Origin: Embleya hyalina
GTDB lineage: Bacteria; Actinomycetota; Actinomycetes; Streptomycetales; Streptomycetaceae
Reading direction: 5' to 3'
Length of the DNA stretch: 64,000 bases
Assembly: GCF_003967355.1 (NCBI RefSeq)
Contig: NZ_BIFH01000026.1
Span: forward strand, 1 to 64,000
Every line of letters begins with the position of its first letter. Position 1 is the first letter of the stretch. Under the pieces are notes generated by a model. The model ran no database searches. It saw nothing but the letters and a program-made list of their open reading frames with translations, and had not been told where the DNA came from. Positions 1 to 62,387 of the stretch are shown here, piece after piece. A program made the position numbers and the translations under genes.

Positions 1-3000
1 ACCGGCCCGGGGCCCGAGAACATCGGCCGACCGTCGGCGGTACCACCCGAGGAAGCCAACTCGGTGAGGCCGGCCGCGAGTTCACCCGCATCGCGACCAC
101 GGACCACCGCCCGCCGATCGAAGACCGACCGCTCCCGAACCAGCGACCACCCCACGTCGACCGGATCCGCGTCCGGATGCCGCGTCGACCACTCCCGCAG
201 CCGCGCCGCCTGCGCCCGCAGCCCCTCGTCGGTCCTGGCCGACAACACCCACGGCACCAGGCCCGCCACGCCCACCGGCGCGGCCGGGGACGCCACCCGT
301 TCGATCGCCGGCGCCTGTTCGACGATCACGTGCGCGTTCGTCCCGCTGATCCCGAACGACGACACGGCGGCCCGACGCGCCCGGCCGGCCTCGGGCCACG
401 GTCGACGCTCGGCCAACAGTTCGACGTGTCCGGTCGACCAGTCCACGTGCGGCGACGGCGCGTCGACGTGCAGCGTCTCGGGCAGTACGCCGTGCCGCAT
501 CGCCATGATCATCTTGATCAGGCCGGCCACCCCGGCCGCGGCCTGCGTGTGTCCGATGTTGGACTTGATCGAGCCCAGCCACAACGGCCGATCCGCGGGC
601 CGGTCCTGTCCGTACGTGGCCAACAGCGCCTGTGCCTCGATCGGGTCGCCCAGCGTCGTCCCGGTCCCGTGCGCCTCCACCGCGTCCACGTCCGCCGCCG
701 ACAACCCGGCACCGGCCAGCGCCGCCCGGATCACCCGCTCCTGGGACGGTCCGTTCGGCGCGGTCAGCCCGTTCGACGCGCCGTCCTGGTTGATCGCCGA
801 GCCGCGCAGGAGCGCCAGCACGGGATGCCCGTTGCGCCGCGCGTCGGACAGCCGTTCCACCACCAGCAGTCCGACGCCCTCGCCCCATCCCGTACCGTCC
901 GCGCCCGCCGCGAACGACCGGCACCGGCCGTCCGCCGACAGGCCGCGCTGTCGGGAGAACTCGACGAAGACGTTCGGGGTGGACATCACCGTCACCCCAC
1001 CGGCCAGGGCCAGATCGCACTCGCCCGACCGCAGCGCGTTCGCCGCCAGGTGCAGTGCCACCAGGGACGACGAGCAGGCGGTGTCCACGCTGACCGCCGG
1101 CCCCTCCAGGCCCAGCGCGTAGGACACCCTGCCGGTCACCACGCTGCCCACGTTCCCGGCCAGGAGCATGCCCTCGAACCCGTCGGGAGCGCGATGCAGC
1201 CGCGAGGCGTAGTCGTTGTACATCACCCCGGCGAAGACACCCGTGTTGCTCCCGCGCAGTGTCCTCGGATCCAGGCCCGCGTGCTCGAACGCCTCCCACG
1301 CGGTCTCCAGAAGCAGCCGCTGCTGCGGGTCCATGGCCGCCGCCTCACGCGGCGAGATGCCGAAGAACTCGGCGTCGAACTCGCCCGACTCGTAGAGGAA
1401 TCCGCCCCGCCGGGTGTAGATCTTGCCGACCTTGTCCGGGTCGGGGTCGTACAGGTTCGCCAGGTCCCAGCCACGATCCCCGGGGAAGTCGCCGACCGCG
1501 TCCGTGCCGGCCGCGACCAGTCGCCACAGGTCCTCGGGACCGGCCACGCCGCCCGGATACCGGCAGCCGATGCCGACGACCGCGATCGGCTCGTCGACCG
1601 TCGTGGTCGGTCCGGCTGCGGGCGTGATCGGCTCGCTCGGCGCGGCGCCGACCACCTCGCGCGTCATCCGAGCGACCAGGGCCGTTCCGCTGGGGTGGTC
1701 GAAGACCGCGGTCGCGGGCAGCCGCAGGCCGGTGAACGTGTTGATCCGGTTGCGCAGTTCGAGGGCGGTCAGCGAGTCGACGCCCAGTTCGCGGAAGGCG
1801 CGGTCGAGGTCGAGTCGTTCGGGTGTGTCGTGTCCGAGGACGGCGGCGAGTTGCCCGCGCACCAGGTCGGTGATCGCCCGTTCGCGCTGCTCGGCCGGGA
1901 GTTCCCGGATCCGCCGGTTCCACGACGACGTGTCCGTCCGGTCGCCGGAGGCGGCGGCACGCGGCGGCGGGACTCGAACGAGGCCGCGCAGTACGGGGGG
2001 CAGCGCGCCGCTCGCGGCCAGGGCCCGCAGCGCGTTGCGGTCCAGGCGGGCCGGGATCGTGTACGGCCGGTCCCGGTGCAACGCGGCGTCGAACAGGGCG
2101 AGTCCGGTCTCGGTGGGCAGCGCCGCGATCCCGCCCCGGGACATCCGGGCCCGGTCGGTGTGGTCGAGGTGGCGGGTCATCCCGCTGCCCTCGGCCCACA
2201 ACCCCCAGGCCAGCGCGTTGGCGGGCAGCCCGGCGGCGCGGCGGTGTTCGGCGAGGGCGTCCAGGAAGGTATTGGCCGCCGTGTACGCGCCCTGCCCGGC
2301 ATTGCCCGTGATCGCGGTGACGGACGAGAACAGCACGAACGCCGCGGGGTTCGCCGCTCGGGTCAGCTCGTGCAGATGCCAGGCCGCGTCCACCTTGGGG
2401 CGCAGCACCGCGTCGAGCCGATCCGGGGTCAACGACTGCAGCGTCGCGTCGTCGAGCACACCGGCGGCGTGTACGACGATCGTCGGCGGGTGCTCGGCGG
2501 GGATGTCCTCGATCACCCGGCGCAGCGCGGCCCGGTCGGCGACATCGCACGCGGCCACGGTCACCCGGGCGCCGAGCGCGGTGAGTTCGGCGATCGACTC
2601 CTCGGCCCCGGCCGCCTCCCGACCCGTACGTCCGAGCAGGAGCAGGTGCCGGACGCCGTGTTCGGCGACCAGTCGGCGGGCGACCAGCGCCCCCAGGGTG
2701 CCGGTGCCACCGGTGATCAGCGCGGTCCCGTTCGGATCGGGTCGGCGTCGGGCAGCCGGCGACTCGACCGGGTCCGTCGGGTCGACCCGCTCGGCGGGAA
2801 CCATGCGGGGTAGGTGAACCGCCCCGTCCCGCAGGGCGAGTTGAGGTTCACCCGCGACGGCCGCGCCGAGCAGCGCGGAAGCGGAGCGCACCGCGTCGTC
2901 CAGGTCGATCAGCACGAAACGATCGGGGTGTTCGGACTGCGCGGTCCGCAACAGCCCCCACACGGGAGCCGCGGACAGCCCGGGCAGCACGTCCCCGGAC

Positions 3001-6000
3001 CGAGCGGCGACCGCACCACGGGTGACCACGACCAGCCGGGCCGCACTCGACCGCTCACCGGCGAGCCGGCCCCCGACCAGGTCCAACGCCCAACGTGCGC
3101 TGTCGTGCGCGGCGCCCGGGACGTCGTCGTCCGCCCCCGTCGGTACGGCGGCGAACACCACGTCGGGCGTGGGTTCCCCCGTCGCGAGCAGTCGCGCGTC
3201 GAGGTCCGCGAGGCTCGGATACACCTCGCCGCCGCCCACGCCGAGGTCGTCCCCGATGAACGCGTGCCGAAGACCCGGCGGCTGCGCCGGGGTCGGGCCC
3301 ACGATCCAGCGCAGGTCGAACATCGCGTCGTACGGCCCGGGATCCGCCGCGACCGACCCGTGCGCGGGCAGTTCACGCAGGGCGAGCGCGCCGATGGACA
3401 GGACCGGCGCACCGGTGCCGTCGGCAACCGTGAGCTCCGTGGCCCCGTCGCCCGTCGGGCGCAACCGGACCCGAAGCACGTCGGCTCCGGTGGCATACAG
3501 GCGTACGTCCGCCAACGAGAACGGGATACGCGGCGCACCCGTCGGCGCGTCCCGCGACGGGAGCAGCGGATGCAGCGCGGCGTCCAGCAGCGCGGGATGA
3601 ATACCGAACTCGGCGCCTTCCACGTCGGGTTCCCGAAGTGCGTCCGGCAGCCGCACCTCGGCGAACAATTCGCCGGCCGCGCCGCGCCAGGCCTCACGCA
3701 GTCCCCGAAAGGCCGGCCCGTAGCCGTAGCCCAGCCCGGCCAGCACGGGATAGGCGTCGGCGAGATCGAGCACATCGGCACCGGGTGGCGGCCACTCGGT
3801 GAGCCCGCCACCGTCGACCTCCCGCGCCGCGTCACCGAGCACCCCGCCCGCGTGCCGAACCCACGGCTCCCGCTCCGCATCGGCAGCGCCGCCACCCGCG
3901 CGCCGGGAGTGGATGGTGACCATCCGCCGGCCCGCCTCGTCCGCCGGGGCGACGGCAACCCGCAGGTGCACATCGCCGGTCTCCGGCAACGGCAGCGGGG
4001 TCTCCAGGGTCAGTTCCTCGACCTGCGGCACCCCGGCCGATTCCCCGGCCCACAGGGCGAGTTCGAGGAACGCGGTCCCCGGCAGCACCACCGTGTCCAC
4101 GACCGCGTGGTCCGCCAGCCAGGGCAGATCCCGCAGCGAGATCCGACCGGTCGCGATCACCGTGCCGTCGGGCTCGACACCGAGCGCGCCGAGCAGCGGG
4201 TGGGCGATCGGTGTCAGGCCGAGATCGGCCGTACCGTCGGGAGTCGACTCACGCGGGGTCAACCAATAGCGGCGGTGTCGGAACGCGTAGGTGGGCAGGG
4301 CGACCGCCCGCACCCCGGTACCGGCCGGGTCGAACAACGCCTCGGGGTCGGGCCGGGCGCCGTGCGCGACGGCCTCCGCCACCGAGACGAGGAAGCGGCC
4401 CCGGTCGCCGTGGTCGCGGCTCAGCGTGCCGATCGTGGTGCCGCCGCCGCACGCGTCCAACGTTTCCTGGGTGCCGAGCGTGAGCACGGGGTGCGGGCCG
4501 ACCTCCACGAACAGCCGGTGACCGTCCTCGCTCAACGCCCGAACGGCCGCCTCGTACCGCACCGTTCGGCGCAGATTGCGATACCAGTAGTCGGCGTCGA
4601 GGCCGCTCGTGTCGGCCAGGCGAGCGCCGGTCACGGTGGAATAGAAGGGCGTGGACGCGGCTCGCGGCCGCACCTCGGCCAGGTCGGTCAGGAGCCGATC
4701 ACGGATCCCCTCCATGTGCGCGGAGTGCGACGCGTAGTCGACCGGGATCCGCCGGGCCCGCAGGTCGTCCGCCGCGCAACGGCCCAGGAACGCGTCCAGT
4801 GCCTCGGTGTCGCCGCCGACCACGGTGGCGGTGGGCCCGTTGACGGCGGCCACGCCGAGCCGGCCGGCCCAGGGTTCGAGCAGCGCGGCGACCCGGTCGG
4901 CGGGCAGCGGCACCGAGGCCATCCCGCCGCTGCCGGCGGCCGCGACCAGCGCCCGGCTGCGCAGCGCGACCACCTTGGCGGCGTCCGCCAGGGACAGGGC
5001 GCCCGCGACGTACGCGGCGGCGATCTCGCCCTGCGAGTGGCCGACCACGGCCTGCGGTTCGATGCCGATCGAACGCCACAGCGCGGCCAGCGAGACCATC
5101 ACCGCGAACAGCGCCGGTTGTACGACGTCGACGCGCGTCAACGCCGGGGTCCCGGGTTCGCGGAGCACGTCGAGCGGCGACCGGTCGACGTACGGGTCCA
5201 GCGCGTCGGCGCAGGCCCGCATGGAGGCGGCGAACGGCTCGCAGGTGTCCAGGAGTTCCAACGCCATCCCGGACCACTGGGTGCCCTGTCCGGGAAAGAC
5301 GAACACGGTTGCGCCCCGGGCCGCCGCGCCGCCGCGGATCAGCCGGTCGGCGGGTCGACCGGCGGCGAGCGCGGCCAACCCGTGCAGCGCCTCGGCGTGG
5401 GTGCGTGCGGGCACCACGGCGGTGTGCTCGAACCCGGCCCGACCCCGGAGCAGCGAATACCCGACATCGGCCAGGGCCGGAGCGTCCGCCCCCCGCAGCA
5501 GCACCGCGAGCCGTTCCCCCTGCGCCCGCAGCGCGGCCTCGCTCCGCGCGGAAACCACCAGCGGCACGGGGTCGGCGACACCGTCGGCCCCGGGCTCGCC
5601 GGCAAGCCCCGGTGCCTCCTCGCCGGCATCCGCCTCCTCCACGATCACATGCGCGTTCGTCCCGCTGATCCCGAACGACGACACCGCCGCCCGGCGCGGT
5701 CGGTCGTACGCCGGCCAGTCCGTGGTCGTCGTCGGCAGCGTGATCGCCCCGTCCGCCCACCGCACGTGCGGCGACGGTTCGCGCAGGTGCAGCGTCCCGG
5801 GCACCGCGCCGTGCCGCAGGGCCAGCACGGTCTTGATCAGTCCGGCCACACCCGCCGCGGCCTGGGTGTGGCCGATGTTGGATTTCACCGAGCCGAGCAG
5901 CAGCGGCCGATCGGCGGCCCGCTCCCGGCCGTACGTGGCAAGCAGCGCCTGCGCCTCGATCGGGTCGCCCAGCGGTGTCCCGGTGCCGTGCGCCTCGACC

Positions 6001-9000
6001 AGGTCGACGTCGTCCGGACCGAGTCCGGCGGCGGCCAGCGCGTCCCGGATCACCCGTTGCTGGGCGGCCCCGTTGGGCGCGCTGAGCCCGTTGCTGGCCC
6101 CGTCCTGGTTGATCGCCGAGCCGCGGAGCACGGCGAGTACGGGATGGCCGTTGCGGCGCGCGTCGGACAGGCGTTCCAGCAGGAGCACGCCCACGCCCTC
6201 GGCCCAGGCGGTGCCGTCGGCGTCCGCCGAGAACGGCTTGCAACGACCGTCGGGGGCCAGGCCGCGCTGCCGGGCGAACTCGACGAACATGCCGGGGCCG
6301 GCCATCACGGTGGCGCCGCCCGCCAGGGCCAGCGCACACTCCCCGCTCACCAGCGAACGGGCGGCCAGGTGCACCGCGACCAGCGAGGACGAGCAGGCGG
6401 TGTCGACGGTCAGCGCCGGGCCCGACAGGCCGAGCGTGTAGGCGATCCGCCCGGAGGCGACACTCGGCGTGGTGCCGGTCAGCAGGAATCCGGCGTGGGC
6501 GTCGCCGGCTTCGTGCATGCGCGGGCCGTACTCCTGCGCGGTGGCGCCGACGAACACCCCCACCCGCTCGCCGCGCAGCGCGGTCGGGTCGAGTCCCGCG
6601 CGTTCGATCGCCTCCCAGGAGGTCTCCAGGAGCAGCCGCTGCTGCGGGTCCATGGCCAGCGCCTCACGCGGGCCGATCCCGAAGAACTCCGCGTCGAAGT
6701 CGCCCGCGCGGTCCAGGAATCCGCCGGACCGTACATAGCTGGTGCCCGGCCGGTCCGGGTCGTCGTGGTGGAGCCGATCCAGGTCCCAGCCGCGGTCGGT
6801 GGGGAAGGCGGTGATCGCGTCCACGCCGTTCGTGACCAGGTGCCACAGGTCCTCGGGGGTGCGCACCGCGCCGGGCAGCCGGCAGCCCATCGCCACGATG
6901 GCGATCGGTTCGTCGGCACCGGTCGGCCCGGGCGTCGGCCGGGGGCCGGTCGGCGCGGGCGGGTCGAGCGCCCGGGTGCGCAGGTGGTGGGCGAGCGCGG
7001 CGGGTGTGGGGTGGTCGAAGACCGTGGTCGGGGGCAGGTCGAGGCCGGTGTCCCGGGCCAGCCGGGTGATCAGTTCGACGGTGGCGAGCGAGTCCAGGCC
7101 CGATTCGCGGTAGGTGCGGTCGGGTTCGACGGTCGTGCTCGCGCCGGGGCCCAGGACCGCGGTCGCGTGTGCGCGGATCAGGTCGAGCAGGATCCGATGT
7201 TGTTCGGCCGCGGACAGTCCGGCCAGTCGCTCGACCGACGTCGGTGCCCCGGCGGGCGATTCGTCCGGCGCGGCGGTGTCGGCGGCCTCCGTCGGGGCGC
7301 CCGGCCAGTGGCGTGCGCGTCGGAAGGCGTACGTGGGCAGTGCGACCCGGCGTGCCCCACGCCCCTCGAACACCCGCTCCCAGTCCGGGTCCACGCCGTT
7401 CGCGTACAGGCGGGCCACCGCCGTGGTCAACGCGTCCGCCTCGGGGCGGTTGCGGCGCAGTGTCGCAATCGTGGCCACGGTGTCCCGCTCGCCGTCGACC
7501 AGGCAGGTCCGGGCCGCCGCCGACAGGCTGCCGTCCGGGCCGAGTTCGAGCAGTACCGTCGCGCCTTGCGCCCGCAGCCGGCGCACCCCGTCGTGGAAGC
7601 GCACGGTGTGCCGCACGTGGCGGACCCAGTAGTCCGGGGAGCAGGCCTGTTCGGCGGTCAGCGGCAGGCCGGTCAGGTTCGATACGACGGGCAGGGTGGG
7701 CGCCTGAGCGGTCAGTTCGGCCGCCACCTCGGCGAAGGCGTCCGTCATGGCGTCCATGCGCGGTGAGTGGAAGGCGTGCCCGACCCGCAGTCGGGTGGTC
7801 TTGTGGCCCTGTGCCCGCCAACCGGCCGCGACGTCCAGGACCGCGTCCCGGTCGCCGGAGATCACCGTGGCCAGCGGCCCGTTGACGGCCGCGATCGAGA
7901 CCCGGTCGCGGACCGGTTCGAGCGAGGCGAGCACGTCGTCCTCGGCGACCCGCAGCGACACCATCGCCCCGCCGTCCGGCAGTGCCTGCATCAGCCGCCC
8001 CCGGGCCGCGACCAGCGCACACGCGTCGGGCAGGGACCAGACGCCGGCCACATGCGCGGCGCACAGCTCGCCGATCGAGTGGCCGAGCAGCAGGTCCGGG
8101 GTCACCCCCCAGTGCTCGAACAGCCGGTACAGCGCGACCTCGACGGCGAACAGCGCGGGTTGGGTGTACTCGGTGCGGTGCACGAGCGCCGCGTCCGGAC
8201 CGTCGGGCGACGCGAACAACACCTCGCGCAGCGGACGGGGCAGGTGCGGGTCCAGGTGGGCGCAGACGGCGTCGAGGGATGCCGCGAAGACGGCATGGCG
8301 GGCGGACAACTCCCGAGCCATGCCCGGGTATTGGCTGCCCTGGCCGGTGAACAGGAAGGCGGTCCGGCCGGGTTGCGCCTCGGCGCGGACCAGGTGTGGA
8401 TCCACGCCGGTTCCGCGCAACGCGTCGAGCCCGCCGAGGAGTTCGGCGCGGTCGTGGGCGAGTACGACCGCGCGGGCGGCGAACGCGTTCCGGGTGGTGG
8501 CCGCCGAGTAACCGAGGTCGGCCGGTGCCACGTCGGGATGTTCGCGCACGTGATCGTGCCACCGCGCGGCCTGGGCCCGAAGCCCGTTCGCGTCGACGCC
8601 GGAGATCGGCACGGCGACCGGGCCCGAGGGCGCCGAGCCGGTCGCGGGCTCCCCGACCGGCTCCACCCCGGCCGAGGGCACCGAGACGCCTGCGGGCTCC
8701 GCCTCCGAAAGCACCACATGGCAATTGGTCCCACCCATCCCGAACGAACTCACCCCGGCGATCAGGGTTTGGTCCGGGCAGGGCCACTCGCCCTCCGCCG
8801 TCTGCACCCGCAGGCCCAGTTCGTCCAGCGGGATCCGCGGATGGGGTTCGGCGAAGTTCAGGCTGGCCGGGAGCCGCCGGTGTCGGATCGCCAACACCGT
8901 CTTGAGCAGGCCGACGATGCCGGCCGCGCCCTCCAGGTGCCCGACGTTGGTCTTCACCGAACCGACGGCCAGCGGCGGCCGGTTCGCCCGTTCGGTGCCG

Positions 9001-10037
9001 AGCGCCGCACCGAGTGCGGCGGCCTCGATCGGGTCGCCGACGGGGGTGCCGGTGCCGTGCAGTTCGACGTACTGGACGGCGGACGCGGCGACCCCGGCCC
9101 GCCGTCGGGCCAGCCGGATCACCTCCGCCTGGGCCCGGGGGTCGGGCGCGGTCAGCGCCTCGCCGCCCCCGTCGTTGTTCATCGCGCTGCCCCGGATCAC
9201 GCCGTGCACGACGTCGCCGTCGGCCAGCGCCCGGGACAGCGGCTTGAGCACCACCACCGCACCGCCCTCGCCGCGCACGTAGCCGTCGGCCCGGGCGTCG
9301 AAGGTGAAGCAGCGGCCCTGCGGGGAGAGTCCGCCGAACTTGGCCGCGTCGCCGTCGCGGTCGGGAACCAGGTCCAGGTTGACCCCGCCGACCAGGGCCA
9401 GGGTCGACTCGCCGCGGCGCAGGCTCTCGCCGGCCAGGTGTACCGCGACCAGGGACGAGGACTGGGCGGCGTCCACCGTCATGCTGGGGCCGCGCAGACC
9501 GAGGGTGTACGAGACCCGGTTGGCGATCATGCTGCGGTGCAGGCCGGTGGCATGTCGGGGGCCGGGTTCGACGCCGGCGCGGCGCAGCAGGGTGGCGTAG
9601 TCGTCCCAGATCGCGGCGGCGAACACCCCGGTGGCGCTGCCCCGGATCCGGGTCGGCGGGATGCCCGCGTGTTCCAGCGCCTCCCAGCACAGTTCGAGCA
9701 TCAGGCGCTGTTGCGGGTCGATCAGGCCCGCCTCGCCCGGGGTGATGCCGAAGAAGGCGGCGTCGAACCGGTCCACCGCGTCCAGGAATCCGCCTCTTCG
9801 CGGTCGGTCCGCGACTGGGTGGGCGGATCCGCCGGCCGCGCGGCTCGCGTCGTCCGTCGCTCTCGCGTCCCGGCGGTGGCGGGGCACCTCTGTGATCGTG
9901 TCGCGTCCGCTGCTCAGCAGGTCCCAGAACTCGTCGGGGCCGTCGGCGCCGGGGAGCCGGCAGGCCAACCCGACGATGGCCACCGCGTCTTCCGGCGCGG
10001 GGTGAGCGGGATGGGCATCGGTGCTGAACACAGTCAT
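1..10037 (-). CDS. Type I modular polyketide synthase: KSQ loading module, module 1, start of module 2 (3' end outside window)
   Basis: One uninterrupted reading frame gives 3345 residues before the window edge. Order of domains: KSQ (about 15-440; the active-site Cys is Gln192 in a DAAQSSS context), AT (Ser654 in GHSIGE, HAFH at 754, the malonyl signature), ACP (Ser983); module 1 KS (Cys1215 in DTACSSS), AT (Ser1668 in GHSQGE, YASH at 1768, the methylmalonyl signature), DH (His1977, Asp2152), KR (GGTGTLG, LDD motif, Tyr2585, so B-type), ACP (Ser2755); module 2 KS (Cys2988) and the linker to its AT. From family rules the loading module should decarboxylate malonyl to an acetyl starter, and module 1 should add a methylmalonyl unit and reduce and dehydrate it. 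The start was chosen because GGAG lies 6 nt before this ATG; ATGs at 10049 and 10058 are in frame alternatives. The DH motif has Asp where Gly is usual. Confidence 0.97.
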   Translation of the reverse strand, partial: MTVFSTDAHPAHPAPEDAVAIVGLACRLPGADGPDEFWDLLSSGRDTITEVPRHRRDARATDDASRAAGGSAHPVADRPRRGGFLDAVDRFDAAFFGITPGEAGLIDPQQRLMLELCWEALEHAGIPPTRIRGSATGVFAAAIWDDYATLLRRAGVEPGPRHATGLHRSMIANRVSYTLGLRGPSMTVDAAQSSSLVAVHLAGESLRRGESTLALVGGVNLDLVPDRDGDAAKFGGLSPQGRCFTFDARADGYVRGEGGAVVVLKPLSRALADGDVVHGVIRGSAMNNDGGGEALTAPDPRAQAEVIRLARRRAGVAASAVQYVELHGTGTPVGDPIEAAALGAALGTERANRPPLAVGSVKTNVGHLEGAAGIVGLLKTVLAIRHRRLPASLNFAEPHPRIPLDELGLRVQTAEGEWPCPDQTLIAGVSSFGMGGTNCHVVLSEAEPAGVSVPSAGVEPVGEPATGSAPSGPVAVPISGVDANGLRAQAARWHDHVREHPDVAPADLGYSAATTRNAFAARAVVLAHDRAELLGGLDALRGTGVDPHLVRAEAQPGRTAFLFTGQGSQYPGMARELSARHAVFAASLDAVCAHLDPHLPRPLREVLFASPDGPDAALVHRTEYTQPALFAVEVALYRLFEHWGVTPDLLLGHSIGELCAAHVAGVWSLPDACALVAARGRLMQALPDGGAMVSLRVAEDDVLASLEPVRDRVSIAAVNGPLATVISGDRDAVLDVAAGWRAQGHKTTRLRVGHAFHSPRMDAMTDAFAEVAAELTAQAPTLPVVSNLTGLPLTAEQACSPDYWVRHVRHTVRFHDGVRRLRAQGATVLLELGPDGSLSAAARTCLVDGERDTVATIATLRRNRPEADALTTAVARLYANGVDPDWERVFEGRGARRVALPTYAFRRARHWPGAPTEAADTAAPDESPAGAPTSVERLAGLSAAEQHRILLDLIRAHATAVLGPGASTTVEPDRTYRESGLDSLATVELITRLARDTGLDLPPTTVFDHPTPAALAHHLRTRALDPPAPTGPRPTPGPTGADEPIAIVAMGCRLPGAVRTPEDLWHLVTNGVDAITAFPTDRGWDLDRLHHDDPDRPGTSYVRSGGFLDRAGDFDAEFFGIGPREALAMDPQQRLLLETSWEAIERAGLDPTALRGERVGVFVGATAQEYGPRMHEAGDAHAGFLLTGTTPSVASGRIAYTLGLSGPALTVDTACSSSLVAVHLAARSLVSGECALALAGGATVMAGPGMFVEFARQRGLAPDGRCKPFSADADGTAWAEGVGVLLLERLSDARRNGHPVLAVLRGSAINQDGASNGLSAPNGAAQQRVIRDALAAAGLGPDDVDLVEAHGTGTPLGDPIEAQALLATYGRERAADRPLLLGSVKSNIGHTQAAAGVAGLIKTVLALRHGAVPGTLHLREPSPHVRWADGAITLPTTTTDWPAYDRPRRAAVSSFGISGTNAHVIVEEADAGEEAPGLAGEPGADGVADPVPLVVSARSEAALRAQGERLAVLLRGADAPALADVGYSLLRGRAGFEHTAVVPARTHAEALHGLAALAAGRPADRLIRGGAAARGATVFVFPGQGTQWSGMALELLDTCEPFAASMRACADALDPYVDRSPLDVLREPGTPALTRVDVVQPALFAVMVSLAALWRSIGIEPQAVVGHSQGEIAAAYVAGALSLADAAKVVALRSRALVAAAGSGGMASVPLPADRVAALLEPWAGRLGVAAVNGPTATVVGGDTEALDAFLGRCAADDLRARRIPVDYASHSAHMEGIRDRLLTDLAEVRPRAASTPFYSTVTGARLADTSGLDADYWYRNLRRTVRYEAAVRALSEDGHRLFVEVGPHPVLTLGTQETLDACGGGTTIGTLSRDHGDRGRFLVSVAEAVAHGARPDPEALFDPAGTGVRAVALPTYAFRHRRYWLTPRESTPDGTADLGLTPIAHPLLGALGVEPDGTVIATGRISLRDLPWLADHAVVDTVVLPGTAFLELALWAGESAGVPQVEELTLETPLPLPETGDVHLRVAVAPADEAGRRMVTIHSRRAGGGAADAEREPWVRHAGGVLGDAAREVDGGGLTEWPPPGADVLDLADAYPVLAGLGYGYGPAFRGLREAWRGAAGELFAEVRLPDALREPDVEGAEFGIHPALLDAALHPLLPSRDAPTGAPRIPFSLADVRLYATGADVLRVRLRPTGDGATELTVADGTGAPVLSIGALALRELPAHGSVAADPGPYDAMFDLRWIVGPTPAQPPGLRHAFIGDDLGVGGGEVYPSLADLDARLLATGEPTPDVVFAAVPTGADDDVPGAAHDSARWALDLVGGRLAGERSSAARLVVVTRGAVAARSGDVLPGLSAAPVWGLLRTAQSEHPDRFVLIDLDDAVRSASALLGAAVAGEPQLALRDGAVHLPRMVPAERVDPTDPVESPAARRRPDPNGTALITGGTGTLGALVARRLVAEHGVRHLLLLGRTGREAAGAEESIAELTALGARVTVAACDVADRAALRRVIEDIPAEHPPTIVVHAAGVLDDATLQSLTPDRLDAVLRPKVDAAWHLHELTRAANPAAFVLFSSVTAITGNAGQGAYTAANTFLDALAEHRRAAGLPANALAWGLWAEGSGMTRHLDHTDRARMSRGGIAALPTETGLALFDAALHRDRPYTIPARLDRNALRALAASGALPPVLRGLVRVPPPRAAASGDRTDTSSWNRRIRELPAEQRERAITDLVRGQLAAVLGHDTPERLDLDRAFRELGVDSLTALELRNRINTFTGLRLPATAVFDHPSGTALVARMTREVVGAAPSEPITPAAGPTTTVDEPIAVVGIGCRYPGGVAGPEDLWRLVAAGTDAVGDFPGDRGWDLANLYDPDPDKVGKIYTRRGGFLYESGEFDAEFFGISPREAAAMDPQQRLLLETAWEAFEHAGLDPRTLRGSNTGVFAGVMYNDYASRLHRAPDGFEGMLLAGNVGSVVTGRVSYALGLEGPAVSVDTACSSSLVALHLAANALRSGECDLALAGGVTVMSTPNVFVEFSRQRGLSADGRCRSFAAGADGTGWGEGVGLLVVERLSDARRNGHPVLALLRGSAINQDGASNGLTAPNGPSQERVIRAALAGAGLSAADVDAVEAHGTGTTLGDPIEAQALLATYGQDRPADRPLWLGSIKSNIGHTQAAAGVAGLIKMIMAMRHGVLPETLHVDAPSPHVDWSTGHVELLAERRPWPEAGRARRAAVSSFGISGTNAHVIVEQAPAIERVASPAAPVGVAGLVPWVLSARTDEGLRAQAARLREWSTRHPDADPVDVGWSLVRERSVFDRRAVVRGRDAGELAAGLTELASSGGTADGRPMFSGPGP

Positions 10038-10343
10038 TCCGCGCTCCATGAACTGCATACGTTGAGTACACGGGCGAACACAGATCAACACATTGGAGTA
10101 CCGGGTCGATCGCACGCAAGGGGCGAATTCAGGCCCGGTCCGGGCGCTTTCGACCACCCGGTTGAACCGTTCGGGTCACTTGGTGTAGGGCGCGAACGCC
10201 CCGCGCACGCCCGTCCCCGACCTGCGTCGTCGACGCGCGAGGACCCTTGATCCGACGGGCCGCGCACCCGGCTCACACGCCCGCGCGCGTGGGGTCTCGA
10301 CGACCCGTCGAGGGAGTCGAACGTATTTGCTCGCGACGAACGT

Positions 10344-12966: not shown

Positions 12967-13215
12967 TCAGGAGTGGTCCCGGTCGGGGCGGCGGCGGAGC
13001 AGCAGGTGGGCGCAGAACATGGCGATCGCGCAGCCGGGTACCCAGGCGAGCTGATACCAGTAGAAGAACGGGACACCGGCGAACTCCGGTTCCCGACGCG
13101 CGTACCAGGGCACCCACAGCAGCGCCGTGACCGGTGCCGCGAGGAGGGCGCCGGCCGCGATCCGGCGGGTCGCGCCGGTGCGTCCGACGGCGTGCGGGGG
13201 GTTCTCCCCGGTCAT
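12967..13215 (-). CDS. DUF3311 small membrane protein, probable symporter partner
   Basis: An 82-residue protein with two hydrophobic helices (about 18-36 and 47-72) separated by a short WYARREPEFAGVPFFYWYQ segment, the recognisable DUF3311 pattern. DUF3311 proteins usually precede and are co-transcribed with SSS-family monocarboxylate symporters. Here the gene runs divergently from the symporter at 13399, with cstA 66 bp downstream on the same strand. It starts at an ATG with a GGAGG-type site (complement of cctcc at 13212-13222) just upstream. Function is presumed from family context. Confidence 0.85.
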   Translation of the reverse strand: MTGENPPHAVGRTGATRRIAAGALLAAPVTALLWVPWYARREPEFAGVPFFYWYQLAWVPGCAIAMFCAHLLLRRRPDRDHS

Positions 13216-34996: not shown

Positions 34997-36004
34997 TCAG
35001 TGTTCGCGTGCCCGGCTGGGCTGTACCCGGGGTGGCTCGCCCGGCATCTTGGGGTGGTCCGGCGGGTACGGCAGGTCGCCGACGCCGTGGTCCCGGGCCT
35101 GGCGGTCGGCCAACTCGAGGGCCGGGCGCAGGTCGAAGGCGTGCTCCGCCATGTCCGCGTGCACGTCGCCCAGGCGCGCGTAGCGCGGCGGCATGCTGCC
35201 CAGGTCGAAGTCGTCGGGGTGCGCGTCGTCCACCTCGTCCCAGGTCAGCGGCGCGGACACGGTCGCCCGGACGGTGGGGCGCGGCGAGTAGGCGGCGGCG
35301 ATGGTGCGGTCGCGGGCCATCTGGTTGTAGTCGACGAAGATGCGCTCGCCGCGCTCCTCCTTCCACCAGGCGGTGGTCACCCGATCGGGCATCCGCGCCT
35401 CCAGTTCGCGGGCCAGCGCGATCACCGCGCGCCGTACCTCGGTGAACTCCCAGTCGGGGCGGATCGGCACGTACAGGTGCAGGCCGCGACCGCCGGAGGT
35501 CTTCGGCCAGGCGGTGAATCCGTACTCGTCCAGCACCTCGCGCATCGCGTGTGCGGCGTGGATCGCGTCGGCGAAGTCGGTGCCGGGTTGCGGGTCGAGG
35601 TCGATGCGCAGTTCGTCGGGGTGTTCGGTGTCGGTGCGGCGGACCGGCCAGGGGTGGAAGGTCAGGGTGCCGAGGTTGGCCGCCCAGACCAGCGCGGCCA
35701 CGGTGTCCGGGGCCATCTCGTCGGCGAAACGACCGCTGGGGAAGGTGATCCGGGCGGTGGGGATCCATTCCGGCAGGTTCTTGGGCACCCGCTTCTGGAA
35801 GAACGACTCGCCGGTGACGCCGTGCACGAAGCGTTGCAGCGTGGTGGGCCGGTCGCGCAGGCCCCGGAGCATGCCGCCACCGACCGCGATCAGGTAGCGG
35901 ACCAGGTCTCCCTTGGTGAAGCCGCGCTCGGGGTAGTAGACCTTGTCGACGCTGCTCACCCGGACGGATCTGCCGTCGATCTCGAATTCCTCGGCCTCGC
36001 TCAT
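34997..36004 (-). CDS. LigD-type DNA polymerase domain protein (NHEJ)
   Basis: A 335-residue protein equal to the polymerase/primase domain of LigD, as a separate gene. Landmarks: LSSVDKVYYPERGFTKGDLVRY, FFQKRVPKNLPEW, IDLDPQPGTDF (metal-binding Asp pair), WPKTSGGRGLHLYVP, and DYNQMARDRTIAAAYSPRP. It should add nucleotides at double-strand breaks during non-homologous end joining. It is divergent from a ligase gene 137 bp away. No Ku gene is in this window. Confidence 0.93.
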   Translation of the reverse strand: MSEAEEFEIDGRSVRVSSVDKVYYPERGFTKGDLVRYLIAVGGGMLRGLRDRPTTLQRFVHGVTGESFFQKRVPKNLPEWIPTARITFPSGRFADEMAPDTVAALVWAANLGTLTFHPWPVRRTDTEHPDELRIDLDPQPGTDFADAIHAAHAMREVLDEYGFTAWPKTSGGRGLHLYVPIRPDWEFTEVRRAVIALARELEARMPDRVTTAWWKEERGERIFVDYNQMARDRTIAAAYSPRPTVRATVSAPLTWDEVDDAHPDDFDLGSMPPRYARLGDVHADMAEHAFDLRPALELADRQARDHGVGDLPYPPDHPKMPGEPPRVQPSRAREH

Positions 36005-36140
36005 GCCTCAGGGTAGGCGGATTCATACAAATTCGTCCCGTTTGGCACGGCCCGTTCCACCGGCGCTCCTCTCGGTGACTCCCGGCCCCCGTCGGCCGCT
36101 GCGGAGGCGACCGCTCCGGGCCCCGCGCACACTGGGCCGC

Positions 36141-37205
36141 ATGCGCCTTCCCGTGATGCCCCCGGTCAAGCCGATGCTCGCCAAGGCCGCCGCGCGGATT
36201 CCCCCCGGTCTGCACTACGAGGCCAAATGGGACGGGTTTCGGGCGATCGTCTTCCGGGACGGCGACGAGGTGCTGATCGGCAGCCGCAACACCAAGCCGC
36301 TGGACCGCTACTTCCCCGACGTGGTCGAGGCGGCGCTGCGGCTGCTTCCGCCGCGCTGCGTGCTGGACGGGGAGTTGGTCATCGCGCTGGACGGCCGGCT
36401 CGACTTCGATCGGCTCCAGGACCGGATCCACCCGGCCGCCTCGCGGGTTCGGCATCTGGCCGAGACCACGCCCGCCTCCTTCGTGGCGTTCGACCTGCTG
36501 GCGCTCGGCGACGAGTCGTATCTGGCCCGCCCGCTGACCGAGCGGCGGGCCGCGTTGGAGGCGGCGCTGGCCGACGCGGTGCCGCCGATCCACGTCGCGC
36601 CGGCCACCACCGACCCGGCGGTGGCCCGGGACTGGTTCGACCGCTTCGAGGGCGCGGGACTGGACGGGATCGTGGCCAAGGACCCGGCGGGCCCGTACCT
36701 GCCGGACGAGCGGGCGATGGTCAAGATCAAGCACGAGCGCACCGCGGACTGCGTGGTGGCCGGATACCGCGAGCACAAGTCGGGTCCGGTGGTCGGCTCG
36801 CTGTTGCTCGGGCTGTACGACGACCGGGGCCGGCTCCAGCACGTGGGGGTGAGCGCGGCGTTCACCGCGGCCCGACGGGCCGAGCTGGTCGAGGAGTTGG
36901 CGCCGTACCGGATGACCGACCCGACCGGGCACCCGTGGGCGCACTGGGCCGAGGCCGAGGCGCACGAGGCCGACCGGTTGCCGGGCGCGGTCACCCGCTG
37001 GTCGGGCGGCCGGCTCTCGGACTGGGTGCCGCTGCGGCCGGAGCCGGTCTGCGAGGTGGCCTACGACCACGTCCAGGGCGACCGCTTCCGGCACACCACA
37101 CGCTTTCGCCGGTGGCGTACCGACAAGGACCCGGCCGAGTGCACGTACGAACAACTCGCCGAGCCGACCCGCTACGACCTGTCCGACGTGCTCGGCGCCC
37201 GGTAG
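36141..37205 (+). CDS. ATP-dependent DNA ligase
   Basis: A 354-residue ligase. The adenylation motif I is EAKWDGFRAI, with Lys28 in YEAKWDG. Motifs III-V follow (LDGELVIAL, FVAFDLLAL, DGIVAKDPAGPY, AMVKIKHERTADCVV), then an OB-fold. It is in the group of stand-alone actinobacterial ligases that work with separate LigD polymerase and Ku in end joining. The divergent LigD-type gene supports that. A perfect hairpin follows the stop. Confidence 0.94.
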   Translation: MRLPVMPPVKPMLAKAAARIPPGLHYEAKWDGFRAIVFRDGDEVLIGSRNTKPLDRYFPDVVEAALRLLPPRCVLDGELVIALDGRLDFDRLQDRIHPAASRVRHLAETTPASFVAFDLLALGDESYLARPLTERRAALEAALADAVPPIHVAPATTDPAVARDWFDRFEGAGLDGIVAKDPAGPYLPDERAMVKIKHERTADCVVAGYREHKSGPVVGSLLLGLYDDRGRLQHVGVSAAFTAARRAELVEELAPYRMTDPTGHPWAHWAEAEAHEADRLPGAVTRWSGGRLSDWVPLRPEPVCEVAYDHVQGDRFRHTTRFRRWRTDKDPAECTYEQLAEPTRYDLSDVLGAR

Positions 37206-54449: not shown

Positions 54450-55484
54450 TCAGCGCGTCGCGGCCGCGCCGATCCGGGGTGCGATGCCCGCGAGTTCGGC
54501 CAGGCGCCGGGCCGAGTCCACGCGGCCGGCCCGGTCGTGGGCGCTCGTGGTGACCAGGAACTCGTCCGCGTCGGTGCGGGCGAACAGGGCCGCCAGCTCC
54601 GCCGCGACGGTCTCCGCAGTGCCGGCGATCCGGTCGCGCCGCGCGGCGTCCAGGTGTTCGCGCTCGCGTGCGGTGAGCACGGCGGCGCGGACCTCCGCGG
54701 CCGGGATCAGCGGCGGGAAGGTGCCGCGGGTGCGCGAATGGGCCGCCGCCCACGCCTCGGGCAGCAGAAGGTCGTCGGCCGCCTCGGCGGTGTCCGCGAC
54801 GGCGACCGTACCGGCGACCACCACGTAGGGTCGCGCCGACCACGTGGACGGCCGGAACGCGGTCCGGTAGCGCTCGATCGCGCGCAGCATGCGCTCCTCG
54901 CCGATCACCGCGGCCACCACCAACGGCACGCCCGCCGCGGCCGCGTGATCCGCGCCCGCCCCGGTGGCCAGCACGAACGGCGCCGGACGCAGCCCTTCGG
55001 CGGGGCGCGCGTGGACGCCCGGGTGTGCGTCCTGGGTGCCCAGGAAGTAGCCGAGCAGTTCGGCCAGCCGCTCCGGGAAGTCCTCCGCCGCGTCCTTGCC
55101 CCGCCCCAGCGCCGCGCGGATCCCGTCGGTGAAGCCCACGGAGCGCCCCAGGCCCATGTCGATCCGCCCCGGGTACAGCGCCTCCAGCACCCCGAACTGC
55201 TCCGCCACCACCAGCGGTCGGTGGTTGGGCAACATCACCCCGCCGGTGCCGACCCGGATCCGCTCGGTCGCCGCCGCCACCGCCGCGGCCAGCACGGTCG
55301 GCGCCGACCCGGCGACCCCCGGCACGCTGTGATGCTCCGCGACCCAGAAGCGGTGATACCCCAACCGCTCCACCTCCCGGGCGAACGCCACCGCGTGCCG
55401 CAGCGCCGAGGCGGGGTGCTCGCCGCGAAGCGTCAACGATCGATCGAGGACGGAGAACCGGACCTGCGGCGAAAACACGTTCAC
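54450..55484 (-). CDS. LLM-class flavin-dependent oxidoreductase (luciferase-like)
   Basis: A 344-residue protein starting NVFSPQVRFSVLDRS, the usual N-terminus of this group. Barrel landmarks are RFWVAEHHSVPGVAGSAP, IRVGTGGVMLPNHRPLVVAEQF and ALYPGRIDMGLGRS. It should use reduced FMN (F420 is possible) and oxygen on an unknown substrate. The GTG start at 55484 gives the family length; the frame extends to an ATG at 55538. Another membrane protein gene lies 102 bp downstream. Confidence 0.9.
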   Translation of the reverse strand: MNVFSPQVRFSVLDRSLTLRGEHPASALRHAVAFAREVERLGYHRFWVAEHHSVPGVAGSAPTVLAAAVAAATERIRVGTGGVMLPNHRPLVVAEQFGVLEALYPGRIDMGLGRSVGFTDGIRAALGRGKDAAEDFPERLAELLGYFLGTQDAHPGVHARPAEGLRPAPFVLATGAGADHAAAAGVPLVVAAVIGEERMLRAIERYRTAFRPSTWSARPYVVVAGTVAVADTAEAADDLLLPEAWAAAHSRTRGTFPPLIPAAEVRAAVLTAREREHLDAARRDRIAGTAETVAAELAALFARTDADEFLVTTSAHDRAGRVDSARRLAELAGIAPRIGAAATR

Positions 55485-55572
55485 ACGAGTGGCAACACGT
55501 CGCCGCCCGAGGAATTCCCGACCGGCGCGGACTTCCACGTGTCGGCCGGAAGCCGGAGGCTCCCGCCTGCCT

Positions 55573-59410: not shown

Positions 59411-59460
59411 CAGGCGAGTAAGTATGCTCCTGAGAACGGTCCGGTGAAGGGGTGATCAGC

Positions 59461-59901
59461 ATGTCCGCCGGCGAACTCGCCGAACGCGCCGTCGCTCCAC
59501 CGCTTCTGGTCGAGGCGCTGACCGTCGCACAGCGCCGACTCACCCGCACGCTGACCGTCGCGCTGACCGAGGAGGACTGCACCCTCGACCAGTGGCTGGT
59601 GTTGCGCGCCCTGGGCGACGGCAAGGGGCGATCGATGGGCGAACTGGCCCGGGCCCTGGTGATCCCGCAGGCCACGCTGACCCGGATCGTGGACGCCTTG
59701 GTGGACGGCGGCCACATCTACCGCCGCCAGTCCGGGGCCGACCGCCGCCGGATCACGGTCCACCTGTCCCGGCGCGGTACGGACCGACTCGCTCGGCTGA
59801 ACGCGCTGGCCGAGGCACACGAGGCGGCCGTGCGCGCGGCGTGCGCGAGCGAGGACCCGGCGGCCCTGCTGGCGTTCCTGGCCGGCCCCGACACCGCCTG
59901 A
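59461..59901 (+). CDS. MarR-family regulator
   Basis: A 146-residue winged-helix protein (LDQWLVLRALGDGKG, MGELARALVIPQATLTRIVDAL, YRRQSGADRRRITVHLSRRG). It is divergent from the amide operon across 50 bp and probably represses it, with an effector linked to amide metabolism. The ATG at 59461 has AAGGGG 8 nt upstream; a GTG at 59452 is the alternative. Confidence 0.92.
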   Translation: MSAGELAERAVAPPLLVEALTVAQRRLTRTLTVALTEEDCTLDQWLVLRALGDGKGRSMGELARALVIPQATLTRIVDALVDGGHIYRRQSGADRRRITVHLSRRGTDRLARLNALAEAHEAAVRAACASEDPAALLAFLAGPDTA

Positions 59902-59972: not shown

Positions 59973-62387
59973 TCATCCCCCGCCGAGAAAACGCGCGGTC
60001 ACCCCCACCCCCCGCGCCGCCACGTCCCCCGGCACGCCGCTCGCCACGATCCGCCCGCCGTGCACGCCGCCGCCCGGTCCCAGGTCGATCAACCAGTCGG
60101 CGCCGGCGATCACGTCCAGGTCGTGCTCGACCACCACCACCGTGTTGCCCGCGTCGACCAGACCGTGCAACAGGCGCGTCAACGACTCCACGTCCGCCGG
60201 ATGCAGACCCGCCGTCGGCTCGTCCAGGACGTAGAGCGTGTGGCCGCGCCGGGCCCGCTGCAACTCGCTCGCCAGCTTGATCCGCTGCGCCTCGCCGCCG
60301 GAGAGCTCGGTCGCGGGTTGGCCCAGGCGCAGATAGCCCAGGCCCACCTCGCGCAGCGTGGTCAGACTGCGCGCGACGGCGGGCACGTCGGCCAGGAACC
60401 CGGCCGCGTCGTCCACGGTCAGCCCGAGCACGTCCGCCACGTTCAGCCCGCGATAGGCGACCTCGAGGGTGGCCGGGTCGTACCGGGCGCCGTGGCAGGT
60501 CGGACAAGGCGCGTACGTGCCCGGCAGAAACAACAACTCGACCGCGACGAAGCCCTCCCCCGCACAGGTCTCGCAGCGCCCCTCGGCCACGTTGAACGAG
60601 AACCGGCTCGCGGTCCACCCGCGCGCCCGGGCCGCCTCCGTCTCCGCGAACAACCGGCGTACGGTGTCGAACAGCCCGGTGTAGGTGGCCAGGTTCGACC
60701 GCGGCGTGCGACCGATCGGCTTCTGGTCCACCCGCACCAGTCGGTCGATCGCCGCCAGTCCCTCGACCGCGCGCACCTCGCCCGACACCGGCCCGCCGTC
60801 CTCGTCCGGCTCGGCCCCGGTGCCCAGGTGCGCCGCCGTCACCTCGGCCAGCACCCCGCCGACCAGGCTGGACTTGCCCGACCCCGACACCCCGGTGACC
60901 ACGGTGAACACGCCCAGCGGGAACGCCACGTCCAGATCGCGCAGATTGTGCAGGGTGACCCCGGTCAACGTCAGCCACGCGCCGACCGGCCTCGGCGCGC
61001 GCACCGGCGGCGGGCCGGCCGGGAACAGGAAGCGGCGCGTCGCCGAGTCGGCCACCTCGCGCAGCCCCGCCGGCGGACCGCTGTACAGGATCCGGCCGCC
61101 GCCCTCGCCCGCGCCCGGACCCACGTCCACCAGCCACCCGGCCCGGCGCGCGACGGCCATGCGATGCTCCACCACGAACAGCGAGTTCCCGGCCGCCCGC
61201 AGCCGGTCGAGCACCACGAGCAGTGCCTCGGTGTCGGCCGCGTGCAACCCGGCCGACGGCTCGTCGAGCACGTACACCACCCCGAACAACCCCGACCGCA
61301 ACTGGGTGGCCAGGCGCAGCCGCTGCAGCTCGCCCGAGGACAACGTCGGCGTCTCGCGCGCCATGCCCAGATAGCCCAGCCCCAACTCGACCAGCACCGC
61401 GATCCGCGCCACCAGGTCCGCGCGGATCGTCGCGGCCGCCTCCCCGTCCGGCTTCGCCTCGGCCAGCACCCGGGCCGCCTCGGTCAACGGCAACGCGACG
61501 AGCGCGGCGATGTCGTACCCGGCGAACGTCACCGCCAGCGAGGCCGGCCGCAACCGCCGACCGTGGCAGATCGGACACGGCCCGCCGCGCAGGAAACGCT
61601 CCACCCGCTTGCGCTGCGTCGCGCTCTTCGAGGTCGCGAACGTCTTGAGCACGATCCGCCGGGCGCTGCTGTAGGTGCCCTGGTAGTCGCGCTGGATCCG
61701 GCTCGCGTCGCGCACCGGGTGCACGGTGACCACCGGTTGGTCGTCGGTGAACAGGATCCAGTCCCGCTCGGCCTTCGGCAGCTCGCGCCACGGCCGGTCC
61801 ACGTCGTAGCCGAGCGTGACCAGGATGTCCCGCAGATTCTTCCCGTACCACGCGCCCGGCCACGCGGCGATCGCCCCGTCCCGGATCGACAGGTCCGGAT
61901 CCGGGACCAGCGACGCCTCGTCGACGTCGTGCACCCGCCCGAGCCCGTGACAGTTCGGACAGGCCCCGGCGGCGGTGTTGGGGGAGAACGCGTCCGAGTC
62001 CAACCTCGGCGCGCCCGGCGGATACGTTCCCGCGCGGGAGAACAACATCCGCAGCGAGTTCGACAACGTGGTCAGTGTGCCCACCGTCGACCGCGACGTC
62101 GGCGCGGACCGTTGTTGCCGCAGGGCGATGGCCGGCGGCAATCCGTCGATCCCGTCCACGTGCGGCGCGCCGACCTGCTGGATCAACCGGCGCGCGTAGG
62201 GCGCGATCGACTCGAAGTAGCGCCGCTGCGCCTCCGCGTACAGCGTGCCGAACGCGAGCGAGGACTTGCCCGACCCGGACACCCCGGTGAACACCACGAA
62301 CGTGTCGCGCGGGATGTCCACGTCCACGTCCCGCAGATTGTGCTCCCGTGCCCCACGCACCCGTACGAACGGATCGTGCTCGCTCAT
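59973..62387 (-). CDS. UvrA-like ABC ATPase (short paralogue)
   Basis: An 804-residue UvrA relative with two ATPase halves: Walker [13 protein letters not shown] near residue 33 and [12 protein letters not shown] in the second half, with signatures [12 protein letters not shown] and [12 protein letters not shown]. Zinc-type CxxC pairs are CPNC/CPIC and CETC/CPTC. Canonical UvrA has about 950 residues, so this belongs to the shorter class thought to work outside normal nucleotide excision repair, often as drug or DNA-adduct resistance proteins. The ATG has GAGGAG upstream. It is convergent with the MarR gene. Confidence 0.93.

Follow-up and report, generated by a model that had tools for sequence, protein, structure and literature searches.

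A short class II UvrA of Embleya hyalina, its place in the lineage of Deinococcus radiodurans UvrA2 and the conservation of its insertion domain

Ecm16 confers echinomycin self-resistance, and its insertion domain sets the choice of ligand; MtrX and CmrX are UvrA-like proteins of aureolic-acid clusters. According to the accessible part of PMC10192343, Ecm16 (PDB 7SH1), in which the UvrB domain is missing, needs none of UvrA, B, C and D for protection and depends on its ATPase activity; this activity is stimulated by drugged DNA, the rise being 16-fold with DNA that has echinomycin bound. The same text gives MtrX (828 aa) and CmrX (826 aa) as 34.8% and 37.8% identical to Ecm16, so these two need not be of the Ecm16 type. 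The structure of UvrA2 from Deinococcus radiodurans (DR_A0188, PDB 2VF7/2VF8) is solved, yet the literature on the protein, in the portions available, assigns it no clear job and describes its role as unclear or minor. In excerpts of PMC8837605, UvrA2 was unable to replace UvrA1 in reconstituted excision repair and, at up to 8-fold excess, had no influence on incision; the role is called unclear in an excerpt of PMC5128194, which also gives evidence for tolerance of DNA-damaging agents.

The window, i.e. the whole stretch of 64,000 nucleotides of Embleya hyalina analysed here (contig NZ_BIFH01000026.1, positions 1 to 64,000), contains an intact uvrA2-type open reading frame, whose features are listed with those of its neighbours in Table 1. 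In the window, as in three further loci (L129, L130 and L095), a GAGGAG motif ends 7 bases 5' of the start codon. A crude Nei-Gojobori estimate of dN/dS gives 0.10, 0.17 and 0.21 in the comparison with three congeners, so the gene is kept by purifying selection. The 804-residue protein contains two Walker A motifs (starting at residues 35 and 499), two Walker B motifs and the signature motifs LSSGE and LSGGE. CxxC pairs are located at residues 143, 271, 605 and 628, and zinc modules 2 and 3 are present. In the motif and alignment check both zinc module 1 and the UvrB-binding domain were absent. At the UvrB-binding site the same landmarks are 34 residues apart in both the window protein and D. 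radiodurans UvrA2, against 175 in P0005, the class I UvrA of the same genome. The Pfam family UvrA_DNA-bind matches residues 156-264. Among solved structures the best match is PDB 2VF7, over residues 6-801 with 1092 bits, which is not a chance match, and class I structures align in two pieces; the printed alignment with the Mycobacterium tuberculosis protein skips the chain residues between 139 and 289.

Table 1. Features of the uvrA2-type gene and of neighbouring genes in the window
Feature	Position	Strand	Basis or remark
Class II UvrA gene (uvrA2-type), 804 aa	59973..62387	minus	ATG at 62387, stop ends at 59973
Walker A, first ATPase half, residues 35-42	62262..62285	minus	motif position; coordinates hand-converted
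UvrB-binding-domain site of class I, here a short linker, residues ~121-129	62001..62027	minus	landmark spacing; hand-converted
Insertion domain, residues 151-270, between the CxxC pairs of zinc module 2	61578..61937	minus	hand-converted coordinates
Walker A, second ATPase half, residues 499-506	60870..60893	minus	motif position; coordinates hand-converted
Zinc module 3 (CETC 605, CPTC 628)	60495..60575	minus	motif position; coordinates hand-converted
Thiolase-like gene, divergent, 484 aa	62552..64000 (ends at contig base 64006)	plus	ORF and tblastn
MarR-family regulator, convergent	59452..59901	plus	Pfam; beside uvrA2 only within the genus
Luciferase-like monooxygenase gene, 4.4 kb downstream	54450..55538	minus	recurs outside the genus

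Four UvrA proteins were found in the E. hyalina genome (12.05 Mb): P0005 (contig 33), the window protein (P0002), P0003 (contig 13) and P0004 (contig 28). P0003 and P0004 are 74% and 53% identical to Ecm16, the window protein is 47% identical to P0005, and one UvrB was found (search E up to 1e-20). A first-pass annotation, made from the sequence of the window, had described the gene as a UvrA paralogue about 150 residues below canonical length, with both ATPase halves and the zinc CxxC pairs. This description holds. The Walker A, Walker B and signature motifs all occur in duplicate, all four CxxC pairs are in place, and P0005 is 151 residues longer, most of them at one place (its length of 955 aa uses a hand-chosen start in an open frame of 1030 aa). 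The annotation had also named one finding that would speak against it, namely that the gene be the only uvrA of the genome; this is excluded by the count of four, which includes the class I P0005 and the two Ecm16-type copies. The annotation had spotted the gene correctly, and the gene is an unremarkable representative of a family already known.

Looking at each described system separately, D. radiodurans UvrA2 aligns with the window protein over nearly the full length and has the same domains. Both proteins are without the UvrB-binding domain, and they share the first signature LS[SP]GE and the Walker B motif DEPSAGLH; their insertion domains are 59-62% identical, depending on the borders. 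They differ in that the overall identity is 64% and the neighbouring genes are others. Ecm16 is 41% identical to the window protein overall and 24% in the insertion domain, and stands in a separate clade. Class I UvrA (P0005; solved structures 3ZQJ and 2R6F) shares the two ATPase halves, zinc modules 2 and 3 and the insertion domain, but it has the UvrB-binding domain that the window protein lacks, and the insertion domain of P0005 is 22% identical to that of the window protein.

In a maximum likelihood tree of 32 rows, the window protein groups with D. radiodurans UvrA2 and 16 others (18 rows, support 100/100). Ecm16, P0003 and P0004 form a separate clade (100/100), and the remaining 11 rows are longer, class I-like proteins, including P0005 and the tandem protein L075. 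Since the tree program warned that the UvrA2 and Ecm16 clades are long branches that meet, the order of the two relative to class I is unsettled; their separation from each other is settled. The window gene is almost certainly a class II UvrA of the D. radiodurans UvrA2 lineage. A canonical class I UvrA is ruled out by the missing UvrB-binding domain, and an Ecm16-type UvrA by the position in the tree. The lineage is present in all four genomes of the genus examined, in 27 of 61 genomes of the family (7 of the 27 being partial matches with 67-74% identity) and in 19 of 41 relatives; these three genome sets overlap. Further members come from Deinococcus, Myxococcota, Proteobacteria and a Planctomycetia assembly; the lineage is widely but patchily distributed. 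Among the named organisms of the scan, Embleya scabrispora DSM 41855 has the closest protein (89% identity).

The identity inside the insertion domain, i.e. between the CxxC pairs of zinc module 2, was compared with the identity elsewhere in the protein for each lineage. The sets comprised 66 UvrA2, 11 Ecm16-type and 76 class I sequences and excluded three short rows, further loci of a gene already included, the tandem L075 and a third kind of short UvrA. The pairs lack independence, and closely related Chlorobi make up many of the class I rows. Where the rest of the protein is 55-60% identical, the identity in the insertion domain is 46.9% for UvrA2 (329 pairs), 33.6% for the Ecm16 type (18) and 28.2% for class I (388). 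At 60-65% the values are 54.8% (776 pairs), 42.6% (2) and 43.0% (105), respectively. At 70-75% UvrA2 (64.2%, 312 pairs) equals class I (65.7%, 7 pairs), with the Ecm16 type at 47.8% (4 pairs). At 75-80% class I has 69.1% vs 74.6% for UvrA2, and at 80-90% the identities are 86.6% for UvrA2 (56 pairs), 64.8% for the Ecm16 type (18) and 74.6% for class I (296). At deep divergence, the UvrA2 lineage has kept the recognition part more than the other lineages. The counter-case is a set of proteins (L098, L099, L152-L156, L018, L019, L022 and L024) whose insertion domains are 52-58% identical to that of the window protein, with 67-71% elsewhere. The conserved insertion domain suggests that one target may be common to the lineage, which would argue against a compound particular to one strain. 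Two genomes, G066 and G054 (L154 and L155), each have a second match of the lineage; the copies examined have insertion domains 53-58% identical to that of P0002 and 70-71% identity elsewhere, which may point to two target types.

Concerning the genes beside other members of the lineage, formaldehyde-detoxification genes lie within 8 kb of uvrA2 at 7 of the 13 loci of a sister clade consisting mainly of proteobacterial plasmids, and two more loci have weaker matches. The E. coli plasmid carries frmR, a class III dehydrogenase gene and fghA alongside uvrA2, and the Methylobacterium plasmid has fghA nearby. Novosphingobium and Roseomonas have a repressor, a class III dehydrogenase and a formaldehyde dehydrogenase, Enterobacter fghA and a formaldehyde dehydrogenase, and Klebsiella a class III dehydrogenase. 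In Kozakia, a formaldehyde dehydrogenase gene lies on one side of uvrA2 and hxlAB on the other. The weaker dehydrogenase matches are those of Rhodococcus and Stutzerimonas, and no formaldehyde gene was detected by the same test at the other four loci (Acinetobacter lwoffii, Acinetobacter pittii, an unannotated Caballeronia record and L137). All nine associated loci fall in this one 13-member clade (support 1.0, FastTree), and the same tree rules out the window gene as a member. The proteins of the seven plasmid loci belong to the same lineage as the window protein and are 59-65% identical to it outside the insertion domain; they differ in their separate clade and in their neighbours. The insertion domains of all nine associated members are 54-61% identical to that of the window protein. 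No formaldehyde gene was found within 8 kb of the window gene (20 kb around it, L127), nor at the 45 UvrA2 loci outside the clade, the window's included, many of which have short flanks and several of which repeat one gene; two generic zinc dehydrogenases (31-32%) were the only matches there. The 73 control loci had none, and neither had two Deinococcus and two Pantoea records beside uvrA2. In the accessible text of PMC11623301, fungal Starships carry a uvrA that came from bacteria together with genes for formaldehyde resistance, and the excerpts of PMC9455709 and PMC7466150 mention the co-occurrence in passing, for an Acinetobacter plasmid and for a Pseudomonas integrative element with UvrA and UvrB, respectively. 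In the titles and abstracts among the matches listed, which included few subscription papers, class II UvrA is nowhere assigned to formaldehyde. On the Methylobacterium plasmid uvrB lies directly upstream of uvrA2 (L180:3942-8595), which is odd for a lineage without the UvrB-binding domain.

In the window itself, the thiolase-like gene does adjoin uvrA2, as had been annotated. Its best thiolase-family match scores 259 bits, far below the curated NCBIfam cut-off of 757, and it matched no Pfam family at E 0.001. Downstream of uvrA2 the order is MarR regulator, substrate-binding protein, permease, formamidase-like gene (a label given from the likeness of its sequence) and luciferase-like monooxygenase. 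The thiolase, MarR, binding-protein, permease and formamidase-like genes are found near uvrA2 only in same-genus loci (L127, L129, L130 and L013, of which L130 and L013 are probably one strain, as their match values are identical and their contigs equally long). The conservation thus does not point to the thiolase-like gene as a working partner, and an operon or partner based on conserved neighbourhood was rejected. A tblastn search did not confirm an apparent thiolase link to L139 and L142 from ORF clustering, which probably arose through a 1469-aa wrong-frame ORF in L130. The luciferase-like gene is the sole neighbour recurring outside the genus, in 2 of 52 loci: copies with 66% identity lie directly before uvrA2 (L097:4663-5880) and about 4.5 kb away (L132:3113-4135), and its nearest other relative in the E. 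hyalina genome is 41% identical. As a partner it is a weak lead, too thin to build on. For two patterns that we presume to mark SOS control, GAACNNNNGTTC and TTGTC[AG]GTG, no match lies near uvrA2; the window has two of the former (at 13081 and 38855) and three of the latter.

Based on its domains, the window protein is an accessory UvrA without the part for calling in the usual repair enzymes. We consider it probable that it binds a DNA lesion or ligand and clears or masks it in an ATP-driven cycle without UvrABC incision, and we lean slightly towards a role in damage tolerance that is independent of incision. As in solved and tested relatives, the protein would form a dimer with a DNA groove, ATP binding and hydrolysis would drive the grip on DNA and its release, and distorted DNA would be recognised through the insertion domain. 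Bound lesions or ligands would then be cleared, or kept from blocking replication until other enzymes act. Normal incision is probably not started, because the UvrB-recruiting part is missing; some link to UvrB may remain, given the gene order on the Methylobacterium plasmid. The drug-stimulated ATPase and Uvr-independent protection of Ecm16 show how such a protein can work. It seems very unlikely that the window protein is a redundant paralogue which modulates class I excision repair through competition for lesions or mixed dimers: its 47% identity to P0005 and the single UvrB found would fit such a role, but adding up to an 8-fold excess of D. radiodurans UvrA2 left incision unaffected in the excerpt cited (PMC8837605). 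The first-pass annotation had considered resistance to a DNA-binding natural product, of possible relevance in a strain with PKS clusters, and had proposed a phylogeny against resistance UvrA proteins. UvrA-like proteins of biosynthetic clusters do confer such protection, as the accessible parts of PMC10413001 and PMC10192343 report, and MtrX and CmrX could belong to the UvrA2 lineage, several members of which have similar lengths (803-844 aa). For the window gene, however, this reading is not supported, and protection of the strain from its own DNA-binding product in the manner of Ecm16, DrrC or TmrX is unlikely. The protein joins D. radiodurans UvrA2 apart from the Ecm16 clade, its lineage extends to Deinococcus, Myxococcota, Proteobacteria and a Planctomycetia assembly, and its insertion domain is conserved, not diversified. 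The gene also does not lie in a cluster: the PKS of the window (3-10157) is about 50 kb away, and CstA, a symporter, an FGGY-family kinase, the LigD polymerase and ligase, a glycosidase and sugar transport genes lie in between (20 called genes of the window were scanned for Pfam families). Nine simple PKS/NRPS motifs were searched at 24 loci of the lineage, in a coarse test which covers about 10 kb or less on each side and is not antiSMASH. The only hits were an adenylation-type motif at five loci, all from the same genus (L138-L142), and a single short carrier-like motif at L136; neither the window locus nor any of the remaining loci matched one of the nine. Membership of uvrA2 in a biosynthetic cluster was rejected on the Pfam families of selected genes and these motifs. 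For genome mining this is a caution not to take a short uvrA of a gifted actinomycete as a resistance marker on its own, before its branch has been checked.

It is likewise doubtful that the window protein is an aldehyde-damage factor, which would recognise formaldehyde-derived DNA lesions or DNA-protein crosslinks and help to clear them. The neighbours in the sister clade (on both sides in Kozakia), the fungal Starship uvrA (PMC11623301, accessible text) and the similarity of the insertion domains speak for it. On the other side, no formaldehyde gene was detected at the window locus, at 44 others outside the clade, in the Deinococcus and Pantoea records or at four loci of the clade itself. 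The association is limited to a single clade and came to light by way of plasmid records, and hitch-hiking on a mobile island may account for it. Taken together, the formaldehyde neighbours and the conserved insertion domain suggest, without showing, one common target, which could be aldehyde damage. The wider proposal that the whole UvrA2 lineage, the window protein included, would act as incision-independent guardians of DNA with aldehyde (formaldehyde) damage, e.g. adducts or DNA-protein crosslinks, as the single conserved target is distinctly unlikely. If it were true, the function would be openly visible in the plasmid islands, and chromosomal copies such as that of the window would serve it against aldehydes that the cell itself produces. 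The contrast between the conserved UvrA2 insertion domains and the variable ones of the Ecm16 type and of deep class I, together with the formaldehyde neighbours, makes it a concrete and cheaply testable hypothesis. The preferred reading of the window protein is still the clearing or masking of a lesion or ligand without incision.

Some further observations concern the other short UvrA proteins and the rest of the window. The gene of P0003 (L146:7903-12627, contig 13) has a PARG-like gene on one side and an AlkZ-like DNA glycosylase gene on the other, and is a better candidate than the window gene for resistance to natural products or crosslinks. The third kind of short UvrA (L116/L143, L144, L145 and L175), present in four genomes of the family, is 42-48% identical to the window protein. 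It was considered as a possible relative of MtrX; no type II PKS motif was found in the 20-kb stretches. Of six genes near L143, L144 and L145, one is without a match; the other five encode an oxidoreductase, a transporter, a short-chain dehydrogenase, a helicase and a SpoIIE phosphatase. Two motif matches looked like chance: a glycosyltransferase-like one at L145, which is within the helicase gene but in a different frame, and an acyl-carrier-like one at L143, which falls in no called gene. On the Streptomyces globisporus C-1027 plasmid (L184:7944-10271), a UvrA annotated only as an ATP-binding cassette protein lies near the enediyne chromoprotein gene; of three queries it is closest to P0003 (48%). 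In the window, genes for a LigD polymerase and an ATP-dependent DNA ligase (34997-37205), about 23 kb from uvrA2, are divergent, and their 5' ends overlap as called.
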